A DNA stretch of 60,243 bases from Pseudoxanthomonas sangjuensis (lineage in GTDB: Bacteria; Pseudomonadota; Gammaproteobacteria; Xanthomonadales; Xanthomonadaceae): assembly GCF_010211755.1 (NCBI RefSeq), contig NZ_PDWR01000023.1, forward strand, positions 1 through 60,243, in the 5' to 3' direction. Both the position numbers and the translations under genes were made by a program. The notes beneath the pieces are model-generated. The model had not been told where the DNA came from. It saw only the letters and a program-made list of their open reading frames with translations, and made no database searches. Positions within the stretch are counted from its first letter, which is position 1. Every line of letters begins with the position of its first letter. This document shows positions 35-49,725 of the stretch, one piece after another.

Positions 35-120
35 GGTTGTTGGTTGCCGGTTCTTGGTTGCTGGTGTGGTGACGCAAGGCCGACCGTTTTCCTCCAACAA
101 CCAAGAACCGGCAACCAACG
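35..120. repeat. Heptad-repeat hairpin, GGTTSYT family (copy 1)
   Basis: The arm at 35-64 is a run of heptads of the form GGTTSYT and the arm at 94-120 is its reverse complement. Positions 39-60 and 98-119 form a perfect 22-bp inverted repeat around a 37-nt loop. It lies just downstream of the ribB stop on the minus strand and may help end transcription, but there is no U-tract. Bases 1-34 show nothing else recognisable. Related elements lie at 43583-43664 and 49630-49725. Confidence 0.8.
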
Positions 121-126
121 CCCCTC

Positions 127-1218
127 TCAGGGCTGGACGTACTCCACCACCTCCAGCCCATACCCCGCCAGCCCCACCTGCCGGCGCGGCGTGCCCAGCA
201 CGCGCAGCCTGCCCAGGCCGAGATCGGCGAGGATCTGCGCGCCGGCGCCGTTGCGCCGCCACTGGCCGACGTCCTTGGCATTGCGGACGACGGGTTCGGC
301 GCGCAGCCGCGCCAGCAGCGCCTCGCTGTCGCGCGGTTCGGACAGCACCACCATCACCCCCTGCCCTTCGGCATCGATCGCGCGCAGCGCGTCGGTCGCG
401 GCCACGCCGAAGTCGCCGCGCCGCCAGTGCAGCAGGTCGGCCAGCGGATTCTCGACCTGCACGCGGACCAGGGTCGGCGTCGCCGCGTCCGGTTGACCGC
501 GGACAAGGGCGAAATGCAGTTCGTGGGCGATGCGGTCGCGGTAGGTAACCAGCCGGAACGGGCCGAACTCGGTGTCGATGTCGCGTTCGTCGACGCGCTC
601 CACCGTGTGCTCGTTGTGCAGGCGATAGGCGATCAGGTCGGCGATCGAACCCATCTTCAGCCCGTGTTCGCGCGCGAACACTTCCAGCTGCGGCCGCCGC
701 GCCATCGTGCCGTCGGCGTTGAGCACCTCGACCAGCACGCCGGCCGGCTCGAAGCCGGCGAGCGTGGCGAGGTCGGACGCCGCTTCGGTGTGGCCGGCGC
801 GCGTGAGCACGCCGCCGGGCTGCGCGACCAGCGGGAAGATGTGGCCGGGCTGGCTGAGGTCGGACGGCTTCGCGTCGTGCTTCACCGCGGTACGGATGGT
901 GTGGGCGCGGTCGTAGGCGGAGATGCCGGTGGTCACGCCCTCGGCCGCCTCGATGCTGACGGTGAAGTTGGTCTGGAACTGCGCGGTGTTGTTCTGCACC
1001 ATCGGCGCGAGGCCGAGCTGGCCGGCGCGCTCGCGGTTGATCGACAGGCACACCAGGCCGCGCGCGTGGGTGACCATGAAGTTGATGTCGGACGGCTTGA
1101 CCAGTTCGGCGGCCATGATCAGGTCGCCCTCGTTCTCGCGGTCCTCGTCGTCGACGATCACGACCATGCGCCCGGCGCGGATCTCGTCGAGCAGTTCGGG
1201 GATGGCGGCGAAGCTCAT
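127..1218 (-). CDS. ribB: 3,4-dihydroxy-2-butanone-4-phosphate synthase with degenerate GTP cyclohydrolase II domain (RibBX type)
   Basis: 363 aa. The N-terminal half (about 1-200) makes the four-carbon unit of riboflavin from ribulose 5-phosphate; the acidic motif DDEDRENEGDL, HARGLVCLS and the GHTEAASDLA region are intact. The C-terminal half aligns with GTP cyclohydrolase II in outline, but I find no cysteines, so the zinc-binding Cys triad and the GDxxGSxRCDCG signature are missing. That half is probably not a cyclohydrolase, as in the RibBX hybrids of other gammaproteobacteria. The start overlaps the ribE stop by 4 bp (ATGA), so translation is likely coupled. Downstream would normally be ribH, outside the window. 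Confidence 0.93.
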   Translation of the reverse strand: MSFAAIPELLDEIRAGRMVVIVDDEDRENEGDLIMAAELVKPSDINFMVTHARGLVCLSINRERAGQLGLAPMVQNNTAQFQTNFTVSIEAAEGVTTGISAYDRAHTIRTAVKHDAKPSDLSQPGHIFPLVAQPGGVLTRAGHTEAASDLATLAGFEPAGVLVEVLNADGTMARRPQLEVFAREHGLKMGSIADLIAYRLHNEHTVERVDERDIDTEFGPFRLVTYRDRIAHELHFALVRGQPDAATPTLVRVQVENPLADLLHWRRGDFGVAATDALRAIDAEGQGVMVVLSEPRDSEALLARLRAEPVVRNAKDVGQWRRNGAGAQILADLGLGRLRVLGTPRRQVGLAGYGLEVVEYVQP

Positions 1219-1817
1219 GTGCCGCTCCTTTCGCCGAGCAGGCGTTCGACGTAGCGCGCGACCAGGTCGATCTCGAGGTTCACCGCTTCGCCGGCCTTCG
1301 TCTCGGCGAAGCGGGTGTGCGCCACCGTGTGCGGGATCAGCGCGACCTCGAAGCCTTCGCCATCGGCCTCGTTGACGGTCAGGCTGACGCCGTCGACGCA
1401 GACCGATCCCTTCTTCGCGACGTACTTCAGCAGTGCGGCCGGCGCGGCGAAGCGCCAGCGCTGCGCGCGCGCGTCCTCGGCGATGGAGACGACCTTGCCG
1501 ATGCCGTCGACGTGGCCGCTGACCAGGTGCCCGCCGAGGCGGTCGGTCGGCCGCATCGCGCGTTCTAGGTTCAGCGCCGCCCCGACCGGCAGCGCGCCCA
1601 GCGTGGTCAACGACAGGGTTTCGTTCGACGCGTCGGCCTTGAACGAGGCCGCGTCGAACTCGACCACGGTCAGGCACACGCCGTTGACCGCGATGCTTTC
1701 GCCGAGCCGCACGTCGGCGAACGGCAACGAACCGGTTTCGAAGGTGAAACGGACGTCGCCGCCGCGCGGCTCGTGCGCGGCCAGGCGGCCGACGCCCTCG
1801 ATGATGCCGGTGAACAT
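1215..1817 (-). CDS. ribE: Riboflavin synthase, alpha chain
   Basis: 200 aa, the usual length. It converts two 6,7-dimethyl-8-ribityllumazine molecules to riboflavin. Two lumazine-binding repeats are visible: MFTGIIEGVG and ESIAVNGVCLTV in the first half, then GHLVSGHVDGIG and SVCVDGVSLTVNE in the second. It lies directly downstream of an FMN riboswitch and a short leader ORF whose TGA overlaps this ATG (TGATG). Its own Shine-Dalgarno is poor (GGGGGTG), so initiation probably depends on ribosomes coming from the leader. It overlaps ribB by 4 bp. Confidence 0.95.
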   Translation of the reverse strand: MFTGIIEGVGRLAAHEPRGGDVRFTFETGSLPFADVRLGESIAVNGVCLTVVEFDAASFKADASNETLSLTTLGALPVGAALNLERAMRPTDRLGGHLVSGHVDGIGKVVSIAEDARAQRWRFAAPAALLKYVAKKGSVCVDGVSLTVNEADGEGFEVALIPHTVAHTRFAETKAGEAVNLEIDLVARYVERLLGERSGT

Positions 1818-1876
1818 CAGCGCACCCCCGGCTGGAACGGGCGCGACGGGACGGCGATGGGCATGGGCATGGGCAT
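1817..1876 (-). CDS. 19-codon leader ORF between the FMN riboswitch and ribE
   Basis: Small ORF encoding MPMPMPIAVPSRPFQPGVR. It has a good Shine-Dalgarno (GGAG, 8 nt before the ATG), unlike ribE. Its TGA overlaps the ribE ATG as TGATG, the classic arrangement for translational coupling. The Shine-Dalgarno lies in a 7-bp hairpin (1881-1909) downstream of the aptamer. Inferred role: the riboswitch controls translation of this leader, and ribE follows by re-initiation. The Met-Pro repeats come from a 6-bp DNA repeat. No homologue is known to me; the peptide itself may have no function. Confidence 0.5.
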   Translation of the reverse strand: MPMPMPIAVPSRPFQPGVR

Positions 1877-1880
1877 GGAA

Positions 1881-1909
1881 CGTTCTCCGCGTGTACGAAT
1901 GCGAGAACG
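1881..1909 (-). promoter_or_regulatory. Shine-Dalgarno-sequestering hairpin (riboswitch expression platform)
   Basis: CGTTCTC at 1881-1887 and GAGAACG at 1903-1909 form a perfect 7-bp stem with a 15-nt loop. On the minus-strand RNA the 3' arm plus the next base contains the GGAG of the leader ORF, so folding would hide the ribosome site. This fits a translational FMN switch in which the bound state allows this hairpin. The matching anti-sequestor was not worked out. Confidence 0.55.
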
Positions 1910-1966
1910 CCCCCAGGGCGGGGAAACGCGCCACGCTCCGCCGATGCGGGGCCGAAGCGCGATGCC

Positions 1967-2104
1967 GTCTTCTTTCATCCGGACTGTGACCGTCGGCCCC
2001 GGCATTCGACCGGGTCTGCTGACCCTCCGGCATCGCCGGAGGCGCTCGCGGGCTCGCCCCGAAGGGCCTACCGCCGGTGGGGAATTGCGCCCCGCCCTGA
2101 AGAC
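1967..2104 (-). ncRNA. FMN riboswitch (RFN element)
   Basis: The minus strand carries the conserved RFN blocks in order: CTTCAGGGCGGGG, AATTCCCCACCGGCGGTA, AGCCCGCGAGCG, GGTCAGCAGACCCGGT, GGGGCCGACGGTCACAGTC and GGATGAAAGAAG. It binds FMN and represses riboflavin genes. The regulated unit is ribE-ribB (probably continuing to ribH). ribD lies upstream of the element, beyond two unrelated genes, and so is not under this copy. The remaining 2105-2197 shows no gene. Confidence 0.96.
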
Positions 2105-2197
2105 GTCGTTGGTTCGCCGGCGAACCGGCGGGCGGCATTCTACCGCGGCGGCGGCGCTGCCCCCAGTCCGCCGGCGAACGCAGCGTTGCGCCCGGAT

Positions 2198-3190
2198 CTA
2201 TCGGCGCCCGTAGTAGCCGGCCAGCACCTGGTCCATCACCCGGCTGGTCCGCGCGGCCGATTCCGGCGTCGAGGGGCAGGCGCCGCGGCCGTTCAGTTCG
2301 GCGACGATGGTCTCGATCAGCGGCTGCTGGATGTGCAACGGGTTGGCGATCCGGTATTCGCGCACGCCCTCGGCGTCCTCGACCACGATCGGGCCATCGC
2401 CGAAGGTGGCGAATGCGATCCGGCCGCGGTCGCCGACGATCTCGACGCCGTCGCGCTCGCGGAAGCTGCCGAAATTCCACGCGCCCGTGCCCTGCACGCC
2501 GTTGCCGAAGGCGAACGACATCGATACCGTGTCCTCGGCCGGATAGGCGCGCAGCTGGTTGCCGGCGTGGCCGGACACGGAAACGATCGGGCCCAGCAGG
2601 TAGTCGAGCATGTCCAGCGTGTGGCAGCCCACGTCGACGAACAGGCCGCCGCCGGAAACCTCCGGGCGCACGTGCCACGGCAGATCGTCCGGATTCCGGT
2701 AACGCGGTTCGAACGGATCGTGGAAGACCACGCTGGCCAGCCGCGGCGCGCCGATCGCGCCCTGCTCCAGCAGTTCGCGGATCTTCAGGAAACGCGGCAG
2801 CGCGCGCCGGTAGTAGGCGACGAACATCGGCACGCCGGACCCGCGGCTGGCGCGGATCATTTCCTCGCACTCGGCGAAGGACAGCGCCATCGGCTTCTCG
2901 ACGTACACCGGCTTGCCCGCGGCGATCGCCATCAGCGCGTACGGCTTGTGCGTGGACGGCGGCGTGGCGACGTAGACCGCGTCCACGTCCGGATCGTCGA
3001 CCAGCGCCTGCGCGTCGGCGTACCACTTCGGCACGCCGTGGCGGCGCGCGTAATCCTCGGCCGCCGCCGCGTCGCGGCGCATCACCGCGACCAGCGCCGA
3101 GCCCGGCGCCTTCTGCAGCGCCGGGCCGCTCTTGACCTCGGTGACCTTGCCGCAACCGATGATGCCCCAGCGTATCGTCTTCTCGCTCAT
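2198..3190 (-). CDS. Gfo/Idh/MocA-family NAD(P)-dependent oxidoreductase
   Basis: 330 aa. The N-terminal Rossmann fold starts with WGIIGCGKVTE, followed by YVATPPSTHKPYALMAIAAG and the family signature VEKPMALS (catalytic-site lysine in EKP). The C-terminal substrate domain includes the GGGLFVDVGCHTLDMLDYLLG block with the usual Asp and His. The family oxidises or reduces sugar, inositol or related polyol substrates; the substrate here cannot be read. It is translationally coupled to the upstream dioxygenase-like gene (4-bp ATGA overlap), so the two probably act on one compound. Cytosolic; no signal peptide. Confidence 0.88.
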   Translation of the reverse strand: MSEKTIRWGIIGCGKVTEVKSGPALQKAPGSALVAVMRRDAAAAEDYARRHGVPKWYADAQALVDDPDVDAVYVATPPSTHKPYALMAIAAGKPVYVEKPMALSFAECEEMIRASRGSGVPMFVAYYRRALPRFLKIRELLEQGAIGAPRLASVVFHDPFEPRYRNPDDLPWHVRPEVSGGGLFVDVGCHTLDMLDYLLGPIVSVSGHAGNQLRAYPAEDTVSMSFAFGNGVQGTGAWNFGSFRERDGVEIVGDRGRIAFATFGDGPIVVEDAEGVREYRIANPLHIQQPLIETIVAELNGRGACPSTPESAARTSRVMDQVLAGYYGRR

Positions 3191-4026
3191 CGGGTCGCGA
3201 ATTCCTTGCGCAGGAAGGCCTGGTGCAGCGCGTGGTATTCGTCGACCCGCGGGTAGCGCGCGCGCTCGGCGACATGCGCCTGCAGCGCCGCGCGCACCGG
3301 CGCATCGAGGCCGGCGAGGTATTCCGGCGTGTATTCGTTGTGGTCGAGCACGCCGAAATGCAGGGTCGGTTCGGCGCGGTCGGAGTGGAAGCCCAGGTGC
3401 ACGGTGACGCGCCGCTTCGCCAGCGTCCCGCCGTAGCCGCGATGGATCGCGTAGTTGTTGTAGAACACCGCGTGCCCTGGCGGCACCACGATCTGCCTGC
3501 CTCCGCTCAACTCGCGGTCGACCGGCGCCATCTTGTCGGTCGGGCCGAACAGCGCGCGCTCCTCGGCGTTCATCTGCCGGCGATGGCTGCCCGGCACGAT
3601 CCACAGGCAGCCGTCGTCGGTCAGCGGGATGTTCACCTGCACGTAGTTGTAGTCGTAGCCTTCGCTGAACCAGTCCGGGTCGATCCGCTCGTCCGGCACC
3701 TGCAGCACGTCGCGGTGCCATTTCTGCCGGTATTCGACCCCGGCCTCGCCGTAGAACACCGAGGCGCCGTCGATGATGATGTTGCCGTCGCCGAGCAGGT
3801 CGCGGCAGATCGCGTGGATGCCCTCGTTGCAGATGATTTCCTGCAGCCTGCGCACGTCCCTGCCCGGCTGCAGGAACTGCAGGTTCATCATCTTCGCGCG
3901 TTCGCCGCGGCCGCGCCGCGCCTCGACGATCGCGTCGATGTAGCGCGCCACCTGCGCATCGTCCAGCACCCGGCGGATGACGTAGCCCTGCTCGCGGAAC
4001 TGCTTCGATTCACCTGCGTCCAGCAT
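3187..4026 (-). CDS. Phytanoyl-CoA dioxygenase (PhyH) family Fe(II)/2-oxoglutarate oxygenase
   Basis: 279 aa. The double-stranded beta-helix iron site is visible: His104 and Asp106 in KWHRDVL, distal His195 in NNYAIHRGYG, and an Arg about ten residues on (LAKRRVTVHLGF) for 2-oxoglutarate. PGSHRR is also typical of the family. It probably hydroxylates a small molecule; the true substrate is unknown, and bacterial PhyH proteins rarely use phytanoyl-CoA. It forms a two-gene unit with the Gfo/Idh gene, placed between ribD and the riboswitch-controlled ribE, where I would not expect catabolic genes. Confidence 0.85.
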   Translation of the reverse strand: MLDAGESKQFREQGYVIRRVLDDAQVARYIDAIVEARRGRGERAKMMNLQFLQPGRDVRRLQEIICNEGIHAICRDLLGDGNIIIDGASVFYGEAGVEYRQKWHRDVLQVPDERIDPDWFSEGYDYNYVQVNIPLTDDGCLWIVPGSHRRQMNAEERALFGPTDKMAPVDRELSGGRQIVVPPGHAVFYNNYAIHRGYGGTLAKRRVTVHLGFHSDRAEPTLHFGVLDHNEYTPEYLAGLDAPVRAALQAHVAERARYPRVDEYHALHQAFLRKEFATR

Positions 4027-4098
4027 CTCGGGTTCCTCTGGCGCGACACGCCCGGATGCGTGCCGACGGATGGGGAAACCGCCCGCGCAAGGCCAAAG

Positions 4099-5196
4099 TC
4101 AGGCCAATTCCCGCGAGCGCAACAGCAGGCGCGTATCCTCGCCGATGACGCGCGATTCCACCACCTCCAGGTGCAGGCGCTGCGCCATCTGGTCGATGCC
4201 CAGCCCGGCGAACAGCGGCCGCGCCTTGTCGCCCAGCAGCACCGGCGCGACGTACAACAGCACTTCGTCGGCCAGGCCGGCGGCGAGGAAGGCCCCGGCC
4301 AGCGTGGCGCCGGTTTCGACCAGCACCTCGTTGACCTGGCGCTCGGCCAGCAGCTTCAGCACCGCGTGCAGGTCGAAGACGCCGCGCGCGACCGGCACGG
4401 CCTGGTGTTGCGCGGCGAAATCGCGCGGCAGCCTGGCATCGGGTGCGTGCAGGTACAGCGTCGGCGCGTCGCCTTCGCGCACGCGGCCGCGGGCCACCGT
4501 CGCCAGCCCGGGGTCGAGCACCACGCGCAACGGCGCGACGAAGGCGGTATCGTCCTCCAGGCGCACGGTCAGCGACGGGTCGTCGACCAGTACGGTGTTG
4601 GCGCCGGTCAGGATCGCGCCGCTGCGCGCGCGCCAAAGGTGCACGTCGCGACGCGAAGCCTCGCCGGTGATCCACTTCGAATCGCCGTTGGCCATCGCGG
4701 TGCGGCCGTCGAGGCTGGTGCCGAGCTTGACCCGCACCCACGGCCGGCCGCGCTCGACGCATGAAATGAAGCCGCAGTTGAGCTGCCGTGCCTGCGCTTC
4801 GAGCAGGCCGGACCGGACCTCGATGCCCGCCGCGCGCAGCCTGTCGAAGCCTGCACCGTCGACCCGCGGGAACGGATCGCGCATCGCCGCGATCACCTTG
4901 CCGACGCCGGCGGCAACCAGCGCATCGGCGCACGGCCCGGTGCGGCCGGTGTGCGCGCAGGGCTCGAGCGTGACGTAAACGGTCGCGCCCTTCGCGCGCT
5001 CGCCGGCGGCCTGCAGGGCGAGGATTTCCGCGTGCGGTTCGCCGGCGCGCCGGTGCCAGCCCTCGCCGACGATCTCGTCGCCGTGGGCGATAACGCAACC
5101 GACCATCGGGTTCGGCTTGGTCGTGAACGCACCGCGCTCGGCCAGGCGCAGCGCGCGGGTCATCAACTGGTGGTCGGTGGAGGTGAAGTCGGTCAT
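4099..5196 (-). CDS. ribD: Bifunctional diaminohydroxyphosphoribosylaminopyrimidine deaminase / 5-amino-6-(5-phosphoribosylamino)uracil reductase
   Basis: 365 aa, normal length. The N-terminal cytidine-deaminase-like zinc site has His55-Ala-Glu57 and Cys80/Cys89 (LEPCAHTGRTGPCADAL). The C-terminal reductase domain starts near VRVKLGTSLDGRTA and ends with a VEGG-like segment changed to VETGATLAG. It carries out the second and third steps from GTP to riboflavin. Upstream is nrdR, the common ribD neighbour. A 200-bp repeat-filled gap separates them. The 72 bp to the next gene carries no obvious terminator. Confidence 0.96.
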   Translation of the reverse strand: MTDFTSTDHQLMTRALRLAERGAFTTKPNPMVGCVIAHGDEIVGEGWHRRAGEPHAEILALQAAGERAKGATVYVTLEPCAHTGRTGPCADALVAAGVGKVIAAMRDPFPRVDGAGFDRLRAAGIEVRSGLLEAQARQLNCGFISCVERGRPWVRVKLGTSLDGRTAMANGDSKWITGEASRRDVHLWRARSGAILTGANTVLVDDPSLTVRLEDDTAFVAPLRVVLDPGLATVARGRVREGDAPTLYLHAPDARLPRDFAAQHQAVPVARGVFDLHAVLKLLAERQVNEVLVETGATLAGAFLAAGLADEVLLYVAPVLLGDKARPLFAGLGIDQMAQRLHLEVVESRVIGEDTRLLLRSRELA

Positions 5197-5207
5197 GGGG
5201 CGATTCT

Positions 5208-5397
5208 AATGCCCCTCTCCCCTCGGGAGAGGGGTTGGGGTGAGGGTTCGGCGAAGTGACACAACCCGGAAGATCCGGAAACCCCACAACAAGCGCAAAG
5301 CAATGCCTGTTGTTTTTTACCGACATTCGAGCATCGCTGGCTTCGCCGAACCCTCATCCGGCGCTACGCGCCACCTTCTCCCGACGGGAGAAGGGAA
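5208..5397. repeat. Composite intergenic repeat with CTCTCCC-type hairpins
   Basis: At 5213-5234 is a CCCCTCTCCC / GGGAGAGGGG hairpin. A 15-bp perfect inverted repeat (5242-5256 and 5341-5355) encloses 84 nt, and a second hairpin, CCTTCTCCCGACGGGAGAAGG, ends at about 5395. The module at 5351-5395 matches 9929-9972 almost base for base. Known in outline as a dispersed intergenic repeat of many proteobacteria. It separates nrdR from ribD. Confidence 0.75.
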
Positions 5398-5401
5398 AAC
5401 G

Positions 5402-5938
5402 TCAGCGCTTGCGGCTCTTGTCGACGTTCTTGTCGAAGGGCACCACGTCCGCGCCGAGCAGCTGCAACTGGCCGCTGGCGGCAGGCAGGTCGCGCTCGAG
5501 CTTCTCGATTTCCTCGCGGAAATCGGCGACGTCCTCGAAGCTGCGGTAGACGGAGGCGAAGCGCACGTAGCCGACGTGGTCGAGCTTGCGCATCTCGTTC
5601 ATGACGAAGTCGCCGATCCGGCGCGACGGCAGTTCGCGTTCGCCGCTCATCCGCACCTGGTGCACGACCGAGCGGATCGCGGTTTCCAGCTGTTCCTCCG
5701 ACACCGGACGCTTGTGCAGCGCGCGCTCCATGCTCAGGCGCAGCTTGCGCGCGTCGAAGGCCTCGCGGCGGCCGTCGCCCTTGATGATCGCCGGCAGCTT
5801 CAGTTCGATGGTTTCCAGCGTGCTGAAGCGCTCGCCGCAAGCCTCGCACTCGCGGCGGCGACGGATCGTCGCACCGTCTTCCGACGCGCGCGAGTCGATG
5901 ACCTTGGTGTCTACGTGCTGGCAGAAGGGGCAGTGCAT
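5402..5938 (-). CDS. nrdR: Transcriptional repressor NrdR
   Basis: 178 aa. N-terminal zinc ribbon with Cys3, Cys6, Cys31 and Cys34 (MHCPFC and ECEACGERF), followed by an ATP-cone domain beginning about residue 48 ([18 protein letters not shown]). It binds NrdR boxes and represses ribonucleotide reductase genes when dATP/ATP is bound. The start at MHCPFC is chosen because the zinc ribbon normally begins at residue 1; an in-frame ATG 15 codons upstream would add an unrelated tail encoded by the intergenic repeat. It lies between glyA and ribD, a typical gammaproteobacterial order. Confidence 0.96.
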
Positions 5939-5943
5939 GCGAT

Positions 5944-6037
5944 CAGGAACGAGTGTAGGGGAACGAGGAACGGGTGGAAACACGCGCTCCAGCCATTGAA
6001 TTCACTCGCTTCTCGTTCCTCCCATTCGCTTTTCGTC
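5944..6037. repeat. Heptad-repeat hairpin, purine-rich family (copy 1)
   Basis: Fills the nrdR-glyA gap. The left arm (5945-5980) has units such as GGAACGA and GGAACGG. The right arm (6003-6037) reads, in reverse complement, as AGGAACG, AGAAGCG and AGTG units. The arms share AGGAACGAG exactly but otherwise differ in unit order. Same family as 44096-44198 and 47051-47118. Confidence 0.65.
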
Positions 6038-6039
6038 GT

Positions 6040-7293
<1,254 letters not shown>

Positions 7294-7394
7294 CGGGTCT
7301 CCGGAGGGGGTGGCAAACGGGTCCTTCATTGTAGCGCCCCCCGTCCGGCGCCTGCTGGCGGGCCCCGGGCGCGGCGGCCACGGACGCCCGCCGC

Positions 7395-7422
7395 AAAAAA
7401 AGCGCGCCCGAAGGCGCGCTTT
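7395..7422 (-). terminator. Rho-independent terminator of the RcnB-like gene
   Basis: A 7-bp GC stem (GCGCGCC / GGCGCGC) with a CGAA loop, extended by A-U pairs, is followed on the minus strand by a run of seven T. It lies 28 bp after the stop at 7450 and before glyA. Confidence 0.88.
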
Positions 7423-7449
7423 CCCGGATCCCCCGTCCTACCGGCGGGA

Positions 7450-7923
7450 TCAGTGGTTCAGGATGACGTCGGCGATGATGCCGGTGGCGAGGGCGACCAG
7501 CAGGAAGTCGCCGGCGTCGCTGCGGCGCCAGTAGTAGCCGTGCGGCGGGCGGCGCAGGCCGTAGTAGCCCCAGTCGTTGACCACGTAGGTCGGCGCGTAA
7601 CCCGGGCCGTAGTAGTAGCCGCCACGGGCCCAGTACGGGGCCGGGCGGTGCACGACGACGGTGCGCGGCGCGTAATAGGCCGGGCGCGGCCGCACGTAGA
7701 CCGGCCGGTACACGACGCGGTCGCCGCGGTAGTGGTCGTGGCGATAGTCGTGGCGATAGTCGCGGCGATAGTCGCGGTCGCCGCGGTGATCGCGCTGATG
7801 GCTCCAGCCGCCGCGGTCGTGGCCACGGCCATGCCCGCGGCCATGGTCGCCGGCGAACGCCGGGGCGGACGCCATGCCGAGCAGCAGGACGGAAGAAACG
7901 ACGGTCTTCAGCAAGTTCTTCAT
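7450..7923 (-). CDS. RcnB-family periplasmic protein, His/Arg/Tyr-rich
   Basis: 157 aa. Signal peptide about 1-24 (ends PAFAG). Residues about 25-65 are low-complexity Asp-His-Arg-Tyr-rich repeats encoded by a 12-bp DNA repeat at about 7736-7790. The C-terminal domain ([15 protein letters not shown], then a hydrophobic [12 protein letters not shown] tail) matches the RcnB family. E. coli RcnB is a periplasmic protein linked to nickel/cobalt efflux; here a metal role is only suggested by the His-rich stretch. A single gene with its own terminator, divergent from ettA. Confidence 0.8.
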
Positions 7924-8055
7924 GGCGGCTTCCCCGCGTGTCTGGAACATGGGGCGAACTATCCACCCGCCGGTCTGAACGGATGGCTGCTGGAACCGGT
8001 TCCGCCAACGATTGTTTAATAACCGGTAAGGGGCCAGCAGCCCGGCCCCAACGGG

Positions 8056-8061
8056 TATAAT
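8056..8061 (+). promoter_or_regulatory. Candidate -10 box upstream of ettA
   Basis: A perfect TATAAT lies 75 bp before the ettA start. No convincing -35 box lies 16-18 bp upstream, so this is a partial match. Confidence 0.4.
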
Positions 8062-8136
8062 TCCCGTATCCCCAAACCCGTCACAGTCCGTGCCTTCCGG
8101 CGCGGGCACGGCCGCGCTTACGGAGCCCGCACCGCA

Positions 8137-9801
8137 ATGTCCTCGCAATACATCTACACCATGAACGGCGTCAGCAAGACCGTGCCGCCGAAGCGCCAGA
8201 TCATCAAGGACATCTCGCTGTCGTTCTTCCCCGGCGCCAAGATCGGCCTGCTCGGCCTGAACGGCGCCGGCAAGTCGACCGTGCTCAAGATCATGGCCGG
8301 CGTCGACAAGGACTTCGAGGGCGAAGCCCGCCCGCAGCCGGGCATCAAGGTCGGCTACCTGCCGCAGGAGCCGCAGCTGGACCCGAACCAGACCGTGCGC
8401 GAAGCGGTCGAGGAAGGCGTCGGCGAAGTGCTGCAGGCGCAGGCCGCGCTCGACGCCGTGTACGCCGCCTACGCCGAGCCGGACGCCGACTTCGACAAGC
8501 TGGCCGCCGAGCAGGCGCGACTGGAGGCGATCCTCGCCGCCGGCGACGCGCACACGCTGGAACACCAGCTGGAGGTGGCCGCCGACGCGCTGCGCCTGCC
8601 GCCGTGGGATGCCGTGATCGGCAAGCTGTCCGGCGGCGAGAAGCGCCGCGTGGCGCTGTGCCGCCTGCTGCTGCAGAAGCCGGACATGCTGCTGCTGGAC
8701 GAACCGACCAACCACCTGGACGCCGAATCGGTCGAGTGGCTGGAACAGTTCCTCGCCCGCTACACCGGCACCGTGGTGGCGGTGACCCACGACCGCTACT
8801 TCCTCGACAACGCCGCCGAGTGGATCCTCGAGCTCGACCGCGGCCGCGGCATCCCGTGGAAGGGCAACTACACCGAATGGCTGCAGCAGAAGGACGAGCG
8901 CCTGCGCCAGGAAGAGAACCAGGAAAAGGCCCGCCAGAAGGCGATCCAGAAGGAACTGGAGTGGGCCCGCCAGAATGCCAAGGGCGGCCGCTCGAAGGGC
9001 AAGGCCCGCCTCGCCCGCCTGGAGGAACTGCAGTCGGTCGAATACCAGAAGCGCAACGAGACCAACGAGATCTTCATCCCGCCGGGCGAGCGCCTGGGCA
9101 ACTCGGTGATCGAGTTCAAGAACGTCAGCAAGAAGTTCGGCGACCGCCTGCTGATCGACAACCTGAGCTTCCTGGTCCCGGCCGGCGCCATCGTCGGCAT
9201 CATCGGCCCGAACGGCGCCGGCAAGTCGACGCTGTTCAAGATGATCACCGGGCAGGAAAAGCCGGACTCGGGCGAGATCAACATCGGCCCGACGGTGAAG
9301 CTGGCCTACGTCGACCAGAGCCGCGACAAGCTGGAAGGCAACCACACCGTGTTCCAGGAAGTCAGCGGCGGCCTCGACATCCTCAACATCAACGGCGTCG
9401 AGATCCAGTCGCGCGCCTACATCGGCCGCTTCAACTTCAAGGGCCAGGACCAGCAGAAGATCGTCGGCAGCCTGTCCGGCGGCGAACGCGGCCGCCTGCA
9501 CATGGCCAAGACCCTGCTGCAGGGCGGCAACGTGCTGCTGCTCGACGAACCGTCCAACGACCTCGACATCGAGACCCTGCGCGCGCTGGAAGACGCGCTG
9601 CTGGAATTCCCCGGCAACGCCTTCGTGATCTCGCACGACCGCTGGTTCCTGGACCGCATCGCCACGCACATCCTCGCCTTCGAGGGCGACTCGCACGTGG
9701 AATTCTTCCAGGGCAACTACCGCGAGTACGAAGCCGACAAGAAGCGCCGCCTGGGCGACGACGCCGGCCCGCACCGGCTGCGGTTCAAGGCCCTGAAGTA
9801 A
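8137..9801 (+). CDS. ettA: Energy-dependent translational throttle protein EttA (ABC-F ATPase)
   Basis: 554 aa, family length. Two ABC domains without membrane segments: Walker [10 protein letters not shown] (about 46) and GPNGAGKST (about 356), signatures LSGGEKRR and LSGGERGR, Walker [13 protein letters not shown] and [12 protein letters not shown]. The arm insertion in domain 1 and the charged inter-domain linker ([21 protein letters not shown]) are present. It binds the ribosomal E site and couples translation to the ATP/ADP ratio. The first residues, [17 protein letters not shown], match EttA rather than Uup or YheS. Confidence 0.96.
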
Positions 9802-9814
9802 GCCGTGTTGCCGC

Positions 9815-9973
9815 AACCCCTCTCCCGCTCGCGGGAGAGGGAAGCGTGCGCGCAGCGCACGAGGGCGAGGGCCGGCTCCTGACGTCTCCGGGTTGCGGCG
9901 CACCCGGCTCGCTACGCTCGCACCCCCTCATCCGGCGCTTCGCGCCACCTTCTCCCGCAAGGGGAGAAGGAAG
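9815..9973. repeat. CTCTCCC-type intergenic repeat pair, likely bidirectional terminator
   Basis: Fills the gap between the convergent ettA and def genes. Hairpin 1 is at about 9817-9842 (CCCTCTCCCGCTCGCGGGAG). Hairpin 2 is at about 9949-9971 (CTTCTCCCGCAAGGGGAGAAG). The segment 9929-9972 nearly repeats 5351-5395. Confidence 0.75.
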
Positions 9974-9977
9974 CAAC

Positions 9978-10502: not shown

Positions 10503-10577
10503 CTGGACCTCCTTCGCAATGGTGCATCGACGATGCGGCCAGCCTAGCGCCTTTCCCGCGCGCAGGCGAAGCGCGGG

Positions 10578-11279: not shown

Positions 11280-11286
11280 CTGCGCA

Positions 11287-37630: not shown

Positions 37631-37867
37631 CAACAATCGTCCTGTCATTGCGGCATCCGGCGGGTGCGACGACCGCACATGGCTTCTGCGGGTACAGCGG
37701 GCATTCTCGCACACGGGCCAGCGGCCGGCAGGTCGCGGCGGCCCCAGTTGTCAGGCGTTCATTGCCGTTCGGGCGCCCCGCCACCCTCTTCGGCGCGACG
37801 ACGCCGGCCGCGGAAGTTCCCGCCCGGCCAGCCGCCGCCGGGCGTTCGCCGGGGCGGAGGCGGCGGC

Positions 37868-38821: not shown

Positions 38822-38850
38822 GCGCAAAGCTTAGCCGTTATGCTTCGCGC

Positions 38851-39324: not shown

Positions 39325-39335
39325 GGAGCCCATCG

Positions 39336-39758: not shown

Positions 39759-40839
39759 ACAGCCACCCCGACACGACCAGCATCAATATCGGCGGCAGCG
39801 CGTAGGCCAGGCGGAAATCCAGCTTGAACGCGAGCGCCAGGCGGCTGAACAGCAGCTGCAGCACCCAGAAGCCCAGCGCGAACAGGATGCCGAGGAACAG
39901 CCGCTTGCCGAGGCCGCCGCTGCGCAGGCTGCCGAACGCGAACGGAATCGCCGCCAGGCACAGCGCCAGCACGTTGAACGCGTAGAACCAGCGGCTCCAG
40001 TACTCGTCCTCGAAATCGCGCGCGTCCAGCCCGTTGCGCTCGCGGTAGTCGATGCTCTTGGCCAGGTCGCGCGCGGTCATCGCCCGCGGCCGGGCGATGT
40101 TGGCCGACAGCGAGGCCGCGTCCAGCTTCGACTCCCAGCGCTCCTCGGCCACCTGCTTCTGCTCGACCGAACGCGCGTGGAAGGTGGTGCGGCGCACGTC
40201 CTTCAGCAGCCAGCCGTCGGCGCCGTGCACCGCCAGCGCGGCGTGCGCGATCGACTGCAGGCGCCCGTCGCCGGCCAGTTCGTACAGGCGCACGTCGCGC
40301 AAATGCACTTCCGGCTGGCCGTCGCGCACCACCTCGTCGCCGGTCTGCGCATTGAGGAACACGTCGCCTTCGCGCGCCCACAACCCGGAATAGCGGGCCA
40401 CCGCCACGTTGCCGTTGCGCGCGGTGTTCTTCAACACGGTCGCCTGGTTGTCGCCCCACGCGCCGACGGTCTCCATGCCGACCACCATCAGCAGGGTCAG
40501 CAGCGCCAGCGTCACCGCCACCGAAATGCTCAGCCGCCTGCGCGACAGGCCCAGCGCGCGCAGCGCGGTCAGCTCCGACGTGGCCGCCAGCTGGCCCAGG
40601 CCCATCAGCGCGCCGATCACCGCCGAGGTCGGGAACAGGATGTAGGCGCGGCGCGGCGCGGTGTAGGCGACGTAGGCCAGCGCGTGGGCGAAGCTGTAGC
40701 CGCCCTTGCCGATGTCCTTCAATTCGCCGAGCAGCGCCTGCATCACGTCCAGGCCGACCAGCACCGTCCACACCAGCAGCACGGTGCCCAGCACCACCTT
40801 GCCGACGTAGAGATCGTGGATGTTCGGGCTCAGCCTCAT
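39739..40839 (-). CDS. lptG: LPS export permease LptG
   Basis: 366 aa. Six-helix LptF/G permease with a central periplasmic jellyroll (about 130-270). N-terminal VGKVVLGTVLLVWTVLVGLD and ALRALGLSRRRL coupling region (contact with LptB). It forms the LptB2FG complex that extracts LPS from the inner membrane. It overlaps lptF by 4 bp. Confidence 0.96.
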   Translation of the reverse strand: MRLSPNIHDLYVGKVVLGTVLLVWTVLVGLDVMQALLGELKDIGKGGYSFAHALAYVAYTAPRRAYILFPTSAVIGALMGLGQLAATSELTALRALGLSRRRLSISVAVTLALLTLLMVVGMETVGAWGDNQATVLKNTARNGNVAVARYSGLWAREGDVFLNAQTGDEVVRDGQPEVHLRDVRLYELAGDGRLQSIAHAALAVHGADGWLLKDVRRTTFHARSVEQKQVAEERWESKLDAASLSANIARPRAMTARDLAKSIDYRERNGLDARDFEDEYWSRWFYAFNVLALCLAAIPFAFGSLRSGGLGKRLFLGILFALGFWVLQLLFSRLALAFKLDFRLAYALPPILMLVVSGWLFKRRSR

Positions 40840-41921
40840 GCGCCGGCCCTCTTCGGACGCGACAGGTGGCCGTCGCGCAGGTAGAACCACGCCGCCAGCG
40901 CCAGCATCGGCAGGCTCAGCCACCACAGGCCCAGCGCCGGCGGCAGCTTGCCGTCGGCCAGCGCCTGGGTGCCGTTGAACATCAGCAGCGTACCGACCAG
41001 GAACACCAGGAAGCCGAGCATGATCCGGCCGTAGCGCGCCTGCCGCGGCGAGCTGCGCGACAGCGGCAGGGTCAGCAGGGCGAAGGCCAGCGCCAGCAGC
41101 GGCGGGGTGAGGCGCGAATGCAGCTGGGCGTTGGCACCCGGCCGCGGATCGCCGATCAGCCGCGTCGTCGGCAGCAGTTCCGGATCGTTCTCGTCGCGCT
41201 GGTCCTCGCGGTCCGGCAGGGCGAACTCGTTGCTGGCGAAGCGCGCCAGGTTGTAGTTCAGCCCGCCGTCGAGCGGGCCTTCGACGCGGAAGCCGGCGTC
41301 CAGGCGCAGGTAGCGGCTCTTTTCGCCCTCGAACGACAGTTGCCCGCTGGCGGCGGTGACCACGTCCAGGCGCCCGTCCCGCTGCCGCTGCACGAATCCC
41401 CGCCGCATGTTCACGCCGTCGTCGGAAATCGCGCCGACGTAGGCCACGCCGCCGTTCGACAGCACGGTGAACTTGCCGGCCTCGAGCCCCGCCGCCACCA
41501 GGCTGCGGTTGGCGCGCTCGACCATCCGCACGCCGGTGGCCTCGGCCCACGGCGCCAGCCACAGCGACAACGCGCCGATCACGCCCGCCACCGGCAGCAC
41601 CAGCATCAGCAGCGGCTTCAGCAGCCGGCGCGGCCCGATCCCGGTCGCCGCCAGCACCGGCATCTCGGCATCCCGGTACAGCCGCGAAAAGGTCAGCAGC
41701 AGGCCCAGCATCAGCGACAGCGGCAGGACCACGATCGGCAGGTAGCTGACCAGTTGCAGGCCCAGCTGCGACAGCAGCAGCGAGGCCGGCACCCGGCCCT
41801 CGGCGATCCGCCGCAGCAGGTCGGCCAGCACGCCGCCCAGGCTGACCACCAGCAGCACGATCAGGGTCGCCAGGAAGCCCTGGAGGAATTCGCGGAAAAG
41901 GTAGCGGTCCAGCTTGGGCAT
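40836..41921 (-). CDS. lptF: LPS export permease LptF
   Basis: 361 aa. The start, [13 protein letters not shown], is the usual LptF N-terminus. Membrane helices at both ends and a periplasmic jellyroll between ([18 protein letters not shown]). [16 protein letters not shown] is the coupling helix. Partner of LptG. It diverges from pepA with 169 bp between the start codons, as in E. coli. Confidence 0.96.
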
Positions 41922-42090
41922 CGGGCTTGTCTTACAATCTCGGGTTCGTTCGCTGGTTTCCGGACCCGGCCCGACGCCGAAACGCCCGGCCGGAAAGCCT
42001 GCGATTGTACGGAAGGAACCCCGAAAAGCCTCGTCCGGCTTCCATGGCATGTTCCGACAGGCACACCTCCAACGACTGGAAATCTGCGCA

Positions 42091-43575
<1,485 letters not shown>

Positions 43576-43582
43576 ATCCGAT

Positions 43583-43664
43583 GGTTGTTGGTTCCTGGTT
43601 GTTGGTTGTTGGGAAACCCCGCCGGCAGCCCGCCAGGAACCAAGAACCAGCAACCAAGAACCCA
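43583..43664. repeat. Heptad-repeat hairpin, GGTTSYT family (copy 2)
   Basis: Lies in the pepA-holC gap. Left arm units: GGTTGTT, GGTTCCT, GGTTGTT, GGTTGTT (43583-43613). Right arm in reverse complement (43633-43664): GGTTCTT, GGTTGCT, GGTTCTT, GGTTCCT. Both arms obey the same 7-mer rule, but they are not exact complements at positions 5-6. The holC start is 4 bp after it. Confidence 0.8.
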
Positions 43665-43668
43665 TAGC

Positions 43669-44094
43669 ATGCCCCGCGCCGACTTCTACCTGATCGCCAA
43701 GCCGCGGTTCCTGGAACAGCCGCTGCTGCTGGTCTGCGAGCTGGCCAAGCGCGCCTACGCCGCCAGCCAGCCGACGCTGATCCTGGCGCGCGACATGGCC
43801 CAGGCGGAAGAGCTCGACGACCTGCTGTGGGCGTTCGACCCGGACGAATACCTGCCGCACCAGATCGCCGGCGCGGACGACGACGAGGAAGAGGCGCCGA
43901 TCCTGATCGCCGCGCCCGACACCGACGCGCCGTCGCGGCCGCTGGTGATCAACCTGCGCGACGACGTGTGGCTGAAACCGTGCGAACGCATCCTCGAGGT
44001 CGTTCCCGCCGACCCGGCCGCGCGCGAGCCGCTGCGCGAGCGCTGGAAGCAGTACAAGGCGCTGGATTTCGAATTGAACAAGCACGACATGTAA
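43669..44094 (+). CDS. holC: DNA polymerase III chi subunit
   Basis: 141 aa from MPRADFYLIAKPRFLEQPLL, the family start. Chi links the clamp loader to SSB and primase handoff via psi. Position between pepA and valS matches E. coli. Its likely partner holD is at 47630-48079. Confidence 0.93.
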   Translation: MPRADFYLIAKPRFLEQPLLLVCELAKRAYAASQPTLILARDMAQAEELDDLLWAFDPDEYLPHQIAGADDDEEEAPILIAAPDTDAPSRPLVINLRDDVWLKPCERILEVVPADPAAREPLRERWKQYKALDFELNKHDM

Positions 44095-44095
44095 T

Positions 44096-44198
44096 TCGAG
44101 GAACGAGCGGAGAGGCGCGAGAAGTGGGTAAAAGCCAGGCGCAGCCACCCACTCCCGTCTTCCGCTCACTTCCCGCTCCTCTCCGCCCACTTCTCGCC
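44096..44198. repeat. Heptad-repeat hairpin, purine-rich family (copy 2)
   Basis: Fills the holC-valS gap. CGAGAAGTGGG at 44118-44128 pairs with CCCACTTCTCG at 44187-44197, and CGGAGAGG words occur in both arms but in the opposite order. Units are about RGRARYG. Same family as 5944 and 47051. Confidence 0.65.
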
Positions 44199-44200
44199 CC

Positions 44201-47050
<2,850 letters not shown>

Positions 47051-47118
47051 AAAACGGGAACGGCTGGAAGGGAACGGGCGGACTGCGTTTACCCGTTCCT
47101 CACTTCTCGCCCTTCGTT
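47051..47118. repeat. Heptad-repeat hairpin, purine-rich family (copy 3)
   Basis: Between convergent valS and rimI. The left arm has GGGAACG, GCTGGAA, GGGAACG units. The right arm (47088-47113) reads in reverse as AGAAGTG, AGGAACG, GGTAAAC. The right arm runs into the last codons of rimI (TKGEK and stop). Confidence 0.6.
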
Positions 47119-47633
47119 GCCCGCCCCTGCAACGGCGGCATCCTGTCGATGTCGCCGTCGACCAGTTCGATCGCCATCACGATCGCGTCTTCGCGGCCGT
47201 CGTGCGCCGGGTAGTAGCGCGGGCGCCGGCCGATCTCGTTGAAGCCTTCGCTGTGGTACAGCGCCAGCGCGTGCGGATTCGACGGGCGCACCTCGAGGAA
47301 CACCCGCTCGCACTTCGCTGCGCGGGCCTGCTTCAGCAGCGCGCGCAGCAGGTGGCGGCCCAGGCCCCGGCCCTGCCGCTCCGGCGCCACGCAGATGTTG
47401 AGGATGTGCGCCTCGCCCGCGGCGAGGCTGAGCACCGCGTAGCCGATCAGCAGGCCGCGCTCGTGCAGGACCCACGCCGGATAGCCGGCGGCCAGGCAAT
47501 CGCGGAAGATGCCGCGCGTCCACGGGAACGGATAGGCGCGTTGCTCGACCGCCATCACCGCGTCGAGGTCGTCGTCGCGCATCGGCCGCAGCGCGGCTTC
47601 GGCGCCGTGCGCTTCGATGCGCGCCGCGTTCAC
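47100..47633 (-). CDS. rimI: Ribosomal protein S18 alanine N-acetyltransferase
   Basis: 177 aa from a GTG whose GTGA overlaps the holD stop. GNAT fold: acetyl-CoA loop RQGRGLGRHLL, ILNICVAPE strand and FLEVRPSNPHALALYHSEGF. It acetylates S18. Next to holD, as in E. coli. An ATG at RPMRDDD is an alternative start. Its last residues are encoded by repeat sequence. Confidence 0.9.
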   Translation of the reverse strand: MNAARIEAHGAEAALRPMRDDDLDAVMAVEQRAYPFPWTRGIFRDCLAAGYPAWVLHERGLLIGYAVLSLAAGEAHILNICVAPERQGRGLGRHLLRALLKQARAAKCERVFLEVRPSNPHALALYHSEGFNEIGRRPRYYPAHDGREDAIVMAIELVDGDIDRMPPLQGRATKGEK

Positions 47634-48079
47634 CGCCGCGCCTTCGCGCGCAGCGCGCGCAGGCGCGGCCACAGCGCGCGCTTGGCCGCGGGATTGCCGC
47701 GCAGTTCGGCCGACGCCGGCAACTGCGCGACGACGTCGGCCATTTCCGGCGAATTCGGATTGATGCCGGCGGCGCGGATCAACGCGATGTGCAGGCGGTC
47801 GGGCATGCGCGTCGCCACGCGGCGCGGCGCGGCGACGGGCGCCGAGTCGGTTCCGTCGCGCGGGGCCGGAGCCGGACGCGCGGCAGGGCGGCCGGCCTGC
47901 GGTCGCCCGGGGGCCCTGGCCTGGAATTCGCGCCGCGCCGGCGGCAGCGCCGGCATCGGCGTTTCCGCCGGCGCCTGGGCGGCTTCGGCCACCGGCAACG
48001 CGCCGCGCACCCACACCGTATGGCCCAGCGCCGCCAGCCAGCGCTGCTGCTCGGCGGTCCACGGCGCGGCGTCGCTCAC
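47630..48079 (-). CDS. holD: Probable DNA polymerase III psi subunit (divergent HolD)
   Basis: 149 aa from a GTG overlapping the pssA stop (GTGA); it also overlaps rimI by 4 bp. Not recognisable by length alone, but its ends match E. coli HolD as I recall it: EQQRWLAALGHTVWVRGAL against WQLQQLGITQW...PGAL, and AELRGNPAAKRALWPRL against TDLRANPTARAALWQQI. The middle is an Ala/Pro/Arg-rich linker (about 35-95). In E. coli holD lies directly before rimI, as here. Psi joins chi to the clamp loader. The alternative is an unrelated hypothetical protein. Confidence 0.72.
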   Translation of the reverse strand: MSDAAPWTAEQQRWLAALGHTVWVRGALPVAEAAQAPAETPMPALPPARREFQARAPGRPQAGRPAARPAPAPRDGTDSAPVAAPRRVATRMPDRLHIALIRAAGINPNSPEMADVVAQLPASAELRGNPAAKRALWPRLRALRAKARR

Positions 48080-48855
48080 GCCGCCGGCTCCGTCTTGCGG
48101 AAACGCTGCAACAGCCACGCCACCGGCCCGGACAGCGCGTAGACCACGCCGACCGCGAACAGCACGCGCGGCACGTCGACGACCAGGATCGCGATGACCA
48201 CCGGGACCAGCAGCAGCACCACGAAGGGCACGCGATCGGATTTCGGTCCGGTCCCGGCGCCGCCCTTGAAGCTCCAGTAGCGCACGCGGCTGACCATCAG
48301 CAGGGCCGCGGCCAGGGTGATGCCCAGCGCCACGTAGCGCAGCTGCGGCCCCCTCACGCCCAGGTCGCCGTCGGCGAAGGCCCAGACGAAGGACATCATC
48401 AGCCCCGCCGAGGCCGGGCTGGCCAGGCCGATGAACCAGCGCTTGTCGACCACCGCGACCTGGGTGTTGAAGCGCGCCAGGCGCAGCGCCGCGCAGGCCG
48501 CGTAGAGGAAGGCGACTGCCCAGCCGACCCGGCCCAGCAGCGCGCTGTCCAGCTTCAGCGCCGACAGCGACCAGTGGTACATCACCAGCGCCGGGGCCAT
48601 GCCGAAACTGACCAGGTCGGCCAGCGAGTCGTACTGCACGCCGAATTCGCTGCTGGTGCCGGTCAGGCGCGCGACGCGGCCGTCCAGGCCGTCGGCGATG
48701 CCGGCGATGAACACCGCCACCGCCGCGTGCACGAACTGGCCGTTGGCCGCGGCGATGATCGCGTAGAAACCGCCGAACAACCCGGCCGTGGTGAACAGGT
48801 TCGGCAGCAGGTAGATGCCGCGCGGACGGGGGGGAGAATTGCGGTTTTCTTCCAT
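48076..48855 (-). CDS. pssA: CDP-diacylglycerol-serine O-phosphatidyltransferase
   Basis: 259 aa. CDP-alcohol phosphatidyltransferase motif DGLDGRVARL...GVQYDSLADLV (all Asp present). Seven or eight hydrophobic segments. It makes phosphatidylserine, precursor of phosphatidylethanolamine. First of a chain pssA-holD-rimI with 4-bp overlaps. Confidence 0.93.
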   Translation of the reverse strand: MEENRNSPPRPRGIYLLPNLFTTAGLFGGFYAIIAAANGQFVHAAVAVFIAGIADGLDGRVARLTGTSSEFGVQYDSLADLVSFGMAPALVMYHWSLSALKLDSALLGRVGWAVAFLYAACAALRLARFNTQVAVVDKRWFIGLASPASAGLMMSFVWAFADGDLGVRGPQLRYVALGITLAAALLMVSRVRYWSFKGGAGTGPKSDRVPFVVLLLVPVVIAILVVDVPRVLFAVGVVYALSGPVAWLLQRFRKTEPAA

Positions 48856-48945
48856 GCGTCCCAGTTTAGCCGAAGCCGGCGCCTTGCCAGCGCCGTCCGG
48901 CGGTGCTGCAATCGACCGCTGCCGCAACCGCACCCGGAGCCGTCG

Positions 48946-49353
48946 ATGCGCACCCCGCCCGTTTCCGCCCTGCTGGTCCTGATGGCCGGACTGGCCGCAG
49001 CCGCCACCGCCGAGGCCCAGACCACCCGCCTGTACCAGTGGAAGGACGCCAGCGGCGTGACCCACTACTCCGACAAGCCGCCGGAAGGACGGGACGCCAG
49101 CGACCGCGCCATCGTCAACCACGGCGAGCCCGCCACGCCGGCCGCGCCCGCGGCCAGGCCGGCCGAGAGCGCGCAGTGCACCAACGCGCGGCACAACCTC
49201 GACATCCTGTCGAAGAACGTCAAGGTGCAGGTCGACAACGATGGCGACGGCAAGCCCGACGACGTGCTCGACGAAGCCGGACAGGCCAACCAGAAGGCGA
49301 TCGCCGAGGCCGAGGTCAGGGCCTACTGCCCGGCCCCGGCAACGGCCCGATAG
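48946..49353 (+). CDS. DUF4124-domain secreted protein
   Basis: 135 aa. Signal peptide about 1-24 (ends AEAQ). DUF4124 pattern RLYQWKDASGVTHYSDKPPEG is found at about 28-48. An acidic DNDGDGKPDD segment could bind calcium. Unknown role. It is followed 3 bp later by another DUF4124 gene. Confidence 0.82.
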   Translation: MRTPPVSALLVLMAGLAAAATAEAQTTRLYQWKDASGVTHYSDKPPEGRDASDRAIVNHGEPATPAAPAARPAESAQCTNARHNLDILSKNVKVQVDNDGDGKPDDVLDEAGQANQKAIAEAEVRAYCPAPATAR

Positions 49354-49356
49354 TCC

Positions 49357-49626
49357 ATGCGGCTGGCCTGGGCCATCGTCGCCGGGATCGCGCTGGGCGG
49401 CGGGCTGGCCTGGTGGATGTCGCGCGAAAGCCCGGAACAGACCAGCGAAAAGCAGCGCCGCGCCGAACGGGCCGCCGCCGCGCAGGCCCGCGACGCCGTG
49501 CCCGCGCTGTACCGCTGGCGCGACGAGAACGGCGTGCTGCAGATCACCGACCAGCCGCCGAAGGGCCGGCGCTACGAGCGGATCGACCGCAACCGGCCGC
49601 TGCAGCAGGAAGTGCGCGGGGATTGA
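49357..49626 (+). CDS. Small DUF4124-domain membrane-anchored protein
   Basis: 89 aa. N-terminal hydrophobic anchor (LAWAIVAGIALGGGLAWW), then the DUF4124 motif ALYRWRDENGVLQITDQPPKG. Apparently related to the preceding gene and cotranscribed. Function unknown. Confidence 0.82.
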   Translation: MRLAWAIVAGIALGGGLAWWMSRESPEQTSEKQRRAERAAAAQARDAVPALYRWRDENGVLQITDQPPKGRRYERIDRNRPLQQEVRGD

Positions 49627-49629
49627 AGC

Positions 49630-49725
49630 GGTTCCTGGTTGTTGGTTCCCGGTTGTTGGTTCCTGATTGCTGGTTCAGGCGCGGCCCGGCCGCCGGGGAC
49701 CATGAACCAGCAACCAACAACCGCC
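49630..49725. repeat. Heptad-repeat hairpin, GGTTSYT family (copy 3)
   Basis: Left arm (49630-49676) has units GGTTCCT, GGTTGTT, GGTTCCC, GGTTGTT, GGTTCCT, GATTGCT. The right arm (49699-49725) gives GGTTGTT, GGTTGCT, GGTTCAT in reverse complement. It lies between the DUF4124 gene and proS. Confidence 0.8.

Follow-up and report, generated by a model that had tools for sequence, protein, structure and literature searches.

REP, BIME, and REPIN elements are short intergenic palindromes that occur in many copies near gene ends. Heptameric repeats (GGGANTN)n have been described in Xanthomonas campestris and X. citri (Rehm 2015, PMC4692102); that paper reports 186 and 183 repeat patterns, with convergent pairs in 70 and 75 cases and an intergenic location for 89% and 93%, and concludes that the role of the repeats remains to be found. 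Its discussion notes that heptads are over-represented in some bacteria and proposes slippage as the cause. Intergenic TAACTGA heptads form many sets in Beggiatoaceae, where a translational role is suggested (PMC4679880). Here we analyze a stretch of 60,243 nucleotides from Pseudoxanthomonas sangjuensis (Xanthomonadaceae; contig NZ_PDWR01000023.1, positions 1 to 60,243), referred to at its whole length as the window, in which three intergenic hairpins (sites W1, W2, and W3) have arms built from tandem copies of the degenerate heptad GGTTSYT. Our leading, still tentative, interpretation is that they belong to a position-conserved, REP-like family of dispersed hairpins that sit directly behind stop codons, with concerted evolution of the unit inside each genome.

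A sequence-only reading of the window had described convergent GGTTSYT arrays in three gaps, and these are present at positions 35-116, 43583-43662, and 49630-49722. Two-unit runs GGTTSYTGGTTSYT occur 11 times in the window, all at W1-W3, and in none of 100 dinucleotide shuffles. That the arms consist of GGTTSYT only holds overall, with occasional deviating units (GGTTGCC, GGTTCCC, GATTGCT). In the P. sangjuensis genome (3.29 Mb, 99.96% complete), the exact three-unit pattern has nine matches versus one for a control pattern read backwards. With up to three mismatches in the 21-mer there are 79 matches versus 64 for the reversed control, which is not independent because GGTTSTT read backwards is a rotated form of the same heptad. 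Together, the 79 matches reduce to 20 places and 19 sites, a coding match at C3:79543 being dropped from the set; 18 sites are two-armed and one (C55:27070), a single array, was left out of the arm-pairing tests. These 19 sites support the proposed multi-copy, intergenic hairpin family of one degenerate heptad. Arrays contain two to seven units, with four units in 19 of the 37, and position 5 alternates between G and C in 68 of 101 pairs of adjacent units (43.8 +/- 4.7 when permuted; reached in 0 of 20000 permutations), so that the working unit is closer to the 14-mer GGTTGYT-GGTTCYT. The single GGTT-type array (C55:27070-27150, L044) has no second arm and is directly followed by an unrelated strong GC-rich hairpin. 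Outside the GGTT set, a further heptad hairpin, with units resembling GGAGACG / GGGAGGC, may be present on contig C11 (L224:10353-10425).

Five sites of P. sangjuensis (W2, W3, C12, C24, and C44) were followed in orthologous gaps from the best 30 of the 38 genomes of the genus, that is, the best-matching 29 of 37 congeners. The W3 gap was not recovered at five loci, and 94 of the 145 orthologous gaps were scored, 51 being left out for length (below 70 or above 330 nt). Heptad hairpins were called in 12 of 29 congeners at W2, in 8 of 29 at C44, and in 20 of 29 at C24, with units labeled by eye as GGGAATN, GGGATTN, GTGATTN, GAGNAGT, GGGAACN, GGGACCN, or mixtures. These calls support a new observation: three of the five tested orthologous gaps hold heptad hairpins with other units in congeners. 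The exact GGTTSYT 21-mer was found in 2 of the 38 genus genomes, namely P. sangjuensis and one other genome with a single match (three GGTTCCT units), and in 8 of 395 genomes and 3 of 54 genera of the family. Thus, the 7-nt period and the architecture recur across the genus and some gaps carry a hairpin in many species, whereas the unit differs between species. At C24, the few bases that separate the first unit from the stop upstream look alike by eye in several species with different units; this suggests that the unit there was replaced in place rather than brought in by a fresh insertion. Clustering of unit profiles into five groups, which are coarser than the labels given by eye, left the five P. 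sangjuensis hairpins alone, chained 24 G-rich hairpins, joined 14 of the GAG type, and yielded two singletons; the chain of G-rich profiles is what stepwise unit drift would give. In the W2 gap of G002 (L136), the loop of a GAG-type hairpin seems to hold a second palindromic insert with ACCGGGGTC / GACCCCGGT ends, and a similar insert fills the W2 gap alone in G033 (L119).

The heptad register is apparent from comparison with other periods. The 94 scored gaps gave 45 hairpins at k=7 versus 12, 10, 2, 0, and 0 at k=5, 6, 8, 9, and 10. A lag-k detector applied in 21 genomes to 460 kb around W2 and W3, a region chosen because P. sangjuensis has hairpins there, yielded 12 hairpins at lag 7, whereas lags 5, 6, 8, 9, 10, 11, and 13 all gave none. 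The first three de novo versions of the detector were too strict or too loose, the third giving three at lag 7 and 0 to 2 at other lags in a sample of the congener G021; in 400 kb of unselected G021 sequence the final version gave five at lag 7 and 0 or 1 at other lags. The strand of the 5' arm has more G than C in all 45 called hairpins, many of which are related by descent and not all independent. The layout is identical to its reverse complement, so this polarity belongs to the single strand itself and not to gene or replication direction.

The unit also tends to be common to the sites of one genome. At sites picked because P. sangjuensis has a hairpin there, cross-site unit similarity within genomes was 0.667 versus 0.547 +/- 0.023 when permuted (25 pairs, reached in 0 of 5000 permutations), and 0.649 versus 0.572 +/- 0.022 with P. 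sangjuensis excluded (22 pairs, 2 of 5000). Counted by clade, the excess is positive in 7 of 7 clades (sign-flip p 0.008, the smallest possible value for seven). At three gaps, the data support inherited positions, changing units, and partial homogenization within genomes.

The interpretation also rests on the seat of the hairpins. A stop codon lies 1-13 nt away at 17 of the 19 P. sangjuensis sites, and 7.7% of intergenic positions lie that close. Fifteen gaps are between co-directional genes, three between convergent and none between divergent genes; the gap at W1, which begins at the contig end, is left unassigned. Subtraction of the hairpin leaves at most 60 nt of the gap in 12 of 14 measured co-directional sites, compared with 67 of 192 positive co-directional gaps, and at most 20 nt in 9 of the 14; site C17a, for which no close upstream gene was called, is left out of this count. 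At C12, the gap measures 1 or -1 (analysis coordinates) in 26 of 29 congeners, as if stop and start codons overlapped there, and the P. sangjuensis hairpin stands by eye between those two codons.

We infer that the hairpins may function in mRNA as intercistronic structures. The hairpin would serve in stability or processing, and its stem, by joining both ends, would keep stop and start close in space despite some 80 inserted bases. What selection maintains would be the position and the rule of pairing rather than the letters, and dispersed arrays could exchange units by recombination or slippage, with unit homogenization as the result. If scattered units do change together at fixed position and shape, concerted evolution would be acting on very short dispersed repeats, and shape would be separated from sequence as the selected trait. 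Quadruplex formation would then be less plausible as a cause common to heptad repeats, and the hairpins, which had no Rfam match in this analysis, would provide a marker of intergenic punctuation.

Beyond the genus, the named species collection (84,980 genomes, contigs of at least 3 kb, with records of the P. sangjuensis genome possibly left out) was scanned for hairpins with two exact GGTTSYT units per arm, a pattern that fixes unit and polarity and is thus uninformative on polarity. The scan returned 47 stretches in 29 genomes, including 14 in an Acidobacteriota metagenome-assembled genome (MAG), 5 in a Lysobacterales MAG, and 2 in a Saprospiraceae MAG; by a rough count, random sequence would be expected to give well under one. 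By a naive call of open reading frames (ORFs), 35 of the 47 stretches are intergenic and the other 12 fall within ORFs of 100 codons or more, and a stop is at most 20 nt away in 18 of 27 intergenic stretches with a stop-side neighbor, a count made without a null model. Several heptad arms of the Acidobacteriota MAG JAFAVZ (L050, L054, L072, L076, L083, L087, L091) enclose a similar loop of about 34 nt with the pattern, by eye, TTGCG...CAGGCGC...GCGCAAG; arms and core seem to travel together there, unlike in P. sangjuensis. In G073, from another genus of the family, GGTTSYT hairpins occur at L095, L106, and L109, the latter two placed between an apparent stop codon and the start codon that follows it.

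A wider reading, possible but doubtful, is that intercistronic hairpins of this kind form a class found across many bacterial phyla. Their form, namely a register of 7 nt, a convergent pair of arms with the G-rich strand as the 5' arm, and a seat behind a stop codon, would be inherited, and the letters would be rewritten genome-wide as a lineage-specific 'dialect'. Such a dialect would need a recognition or copying process that reads the 7-nt register and the strand polarity and tolerates a change of unit; we know of no process of this kind. As a lead, a cold-shock protein able to bind heptamer direct repeats, one protein per heptamer, is cited in PMC4679880 and could be a candidate reader with a 7-nt footprint.

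A number of observations weigh against the leading interpretation. No hairpin was called at W3 in any of 24, or at C12 in any of 29, recovered congeners, so that part of the family appears to have arisen at new places, and conversion by itself would not account for this. The cut-off for the hairpin score (6.5) was chosen after the scores had been seen, and the gene boundaries, with the positions relative to them, come from a simple codon-usage gene caller made for this analysis. In 400 kb of unselected P. sangjuensis sequence, the final detector made a single call at lag 7, which by eye is no heptad hairpin, versus 0 to 5 at other lags, with the five at lag 9; the third version had given two at lag 7, which does not exceed the 0 to 3 found at other lags. 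Thus, the sparse family of this genome can be seen only by using its own pattern. Phylogeny is not taken into account in the permutation test of concertedness, and the clades of the clade-wise test were drawn by hand from a tree that lacks G010, which was treated as a separate clade. The excess is smallest (0.062) in the clade of closest relatives, where similarity within genomes is 0.608 (12 pairs), hardly above the 0.596 between species at the same site (44 pairs). Finally, G012, G021, G007, G028, and G009 mix units across sites, and the mixtures in the first three rule out a strict dialect of one unit per species.

Pairing between the arms gives no further support. The perfect 22-bp arm match at W1, which the sequence-only reading took for a match kept or restored within the site, is real; however, cross-site scores are equal or higher, and it is no evidence of maintenance. 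The perfect match at C12 likewise falls inside the span of cross-site scores. Summed over sites, the score of arms paired within their own site was 326 versus 328.6 +/- 10.9 when 3' arms were permuted among the 18 two-armed sites (12118 of 20000 permutations reach it), and the two variable positions alone scored 23.0 versus 20.8 +/- 2.9 (1393 of 5000), so that arms of one site pair no better than arms of different sites. Covariation of the arms also failed to appear: among seven orthologous GAG-type W2 hairpins (of eight, G002 being left out for its second insert), none of 27 pairs changed on both sides in a compensatory way, although both arms are by eye better conserved than the loop. Co-correction of the arms is rejected by the permutation, with no compensatory pairs in this one orthologous set. 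Given neither two-sided changes nor a within-site pairing excess, the data do not show selection on pairing over and above the shared unit.

That the arms look independently assembled agrees with an explanation by simple-sequence-repeat dynamics, in which slippage would favor 7-nt units, template switching would give rise to inverted arrays nearby, and the products would be kept where harmless and have no function. The slippage proposed for over-represented heptads in the discussion of PMC4692102 points the same way, and the position behind stops could reflect tolerance only. Nevertheless, such dynamics do not obviously predict the G-rich 5' arm of every called hairpin, different units at one gap across many species, or the alternation at position 5, and we place this explanation on the unlikely side.

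We consider it unlikely that a mobile element of the REP/REPIN kind, moved by some enzyme, has repeatedly inserted different families into favored gaps. It would account for the W3 and C12 gaps, devoid of called hairpins in all recovered congeners, for the other palindromic inserts in the W2 gap of G033, G002, and G027, and for the 14 contigs of the Acidobacteriota MAG with GGTTSYT hairpins, several sharing a similar loop by eye. On the other hand, the loops of the P. sangjuensis sites are not alike and no target-site duplication of the MITE kind was noticed in the gap sequences (both by eye), the relatives being too diverged for a clear comparison of empty and filled sites. Y1_Tnp (RAYT) matches occur in 35 of the 38 genus genomes and number three in P. 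sangjuensis, one of them below the family cut-off, but the RAYT link envisaged by the sequence-only reading was not borne out, as no two-unit GGTT run lies within about 2 kb of these three. The detector found no lag-7 hairpin, and one each at lags 6 and 9, in 48 RAYT loci (45 distinct places, three fetched twice; 199 kb), which is weak evidence against a link since 0.5 to 5 would be expected from background densities. The search for a linked protein among the RVT_1 and Y1_Tnp families found none.

G-quadruplex formation, as proposed for the GGGAATC repeats, would have the G-rich arm fold as a DNA or RNA quadruplex. A commonest length of four units and a G-rich 5' arm are indeed common to both sets of repeats. 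However, GGTTSYT, GTGATTN, and GAGNAGT have no GGG tracts, yet they show the same architecture, period, and position, and GGTTSYT would allow a two-tetrad quadruplex at most. As units without GGG behave alike, we reject quadruplex formation as the common cause and hold this explanation highly improbable. Least probable of all is a telomerase-like or other reverse transcriptase adding heptads to broken ends that are then joined, which would explain independent arms, fixed polarity, species-specific units, and convergent G-rich arms, but RVT_1 matches occur in only 13 of the 38 genus genomes and in neither P. sangjuensis, which speaks against such a writer, nor the hairpin-bearing G001, G007, G008, and G021.

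In the window, the arms of the three sites were parsed into units from the sequence. At W1, the 5' arm (35..62, plus strand) reads as GGTTGTT, GGTTGCC, GGTTCTT, and GGTTGCT, and the 3' arm (96..116, minus strand) as three units in the minus-strand reading; the stop of a ribBA-like gene (DHBP synthase and GTP cyclohydrolase II; 127..1218, minus strand) is 7 nt away. Near this gene lies an FMN riboswitch (RF00050, 100.5 bits; 1963-2108, minus strand). W2 has four units in each arm (43583..43610, plus strand, and 43635..43662, minus strand) and is located between a pepA-like gene (Peptidase_M17; 42091..43575, plus strand), whose stop is 7 nt before it, and a holC-like gene (DNA polymerase III chi; 43669..44094, plus strand), whose start is 5 nt after it. 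At W3, seven units, the last two degenerate, form the 5' arm (49630..49678, plus strand) and three the 3' arm (49702..49722, minus strand); a DUF4124 gene (49357..49626, plus strand) has its stop 3 nt before the site, and the start of a proS-like gene with class II tRNA synthetase core, editing, and anticodon domains (49775..51469, plus strand) follows after 52 nt. Folding bears out the predicted hairpins, with RNA z-scores of -6.3 (W1), -5.0 (W2), and -3.8 (W3) and 0 of 200 shuffles folding equally well at any site. The centroid structure of W2 keeps the inner stem only, so the pairing register there is not fixed. At gathering score, the window matches no Rfam family other than the FMN riboswitch, with nothing for the hairpins, and loci of 15 of the 16 other P. 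sangjuensis sites match two tRNAs only. Intrinsic terminators were rejected because no T-run follows the stems of W1-W3. A terminator scan of 43000-50000 gave 5 sites versus 5.1 expected, but it considers loops of 3-8 only and is thus blind to these long-loop stems; one of its sites (49617-49637) overlaps the first unit of W3.

The sequence-only reading gave no earlier description of this family. The GGTTSYT unit was not found in the literature searched, whereas heptameric convergent repeats of Xanthomonas are published (PMC4692102). By title, none of the papers listed as containing GGTTGTTGGTT concerns bacterial repeats; searches of freely readable papers for GGGAATCGGGAAT and heptad repeats showed neither GGTTSYT hairpins nor unit change at fixed positions among the matches listed, and searches within PMC3733652, PMC4666352, and PMC2267715 brought up nothing relevant. 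In comparison with REP/REPIN elements, the hairpins have no common palindrome sequence, their arms being tandem heptads, and, unlike REPIN-RAYT systems, none lies beside the Y1_Tnp genes examined. The Beggiatoaceae TAACTGA repeats are likewise intergenic heptads, but they are direct and mostly directed towards start codons, with one inverted case only (PMC4679880).

The likeness to the Xanthomonas GGGAATC repeats, as described in PMC4692102, is closer. Both sets consist of 7-nt units with variable positions, four units being commonest, are mostly intergenic and near the upstream gene end, are few between divergent genes, and often form convergent pairs; by our own reading of the paper, the G-rich strand of the Xanthomonas repeats then forms the 5' arm, as it does here. 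Their location is largely kept between the two Xanthomonas species, with variable length and sequence. The P. sangjuensis family differs in number, with 19 sites (37 arrays) versus 186 and 183 patterns, and in its unit, GGTTSYT, which lacks the GGG tracts for a three-tetrad quadruplex, so it agrees with the Xanthomonas set in its intergenic, stop-proximal, and convergent arrangement and departs from it in unit and GGG tracts. Some congeners do carry the Xanthomonas-type GGGAATN, and in Pseudoxanthomonas, congeners differ in the unit they carry at orthologous gaps, with partial sharing of the unit inside a genome, unlike in the Xanthomonas repeats as far as these have been described. The closest known system is therefore the Xanthomonas heptameric GGGAATC repeats, of which the present family is best described as a variant lacking GGG tracts.

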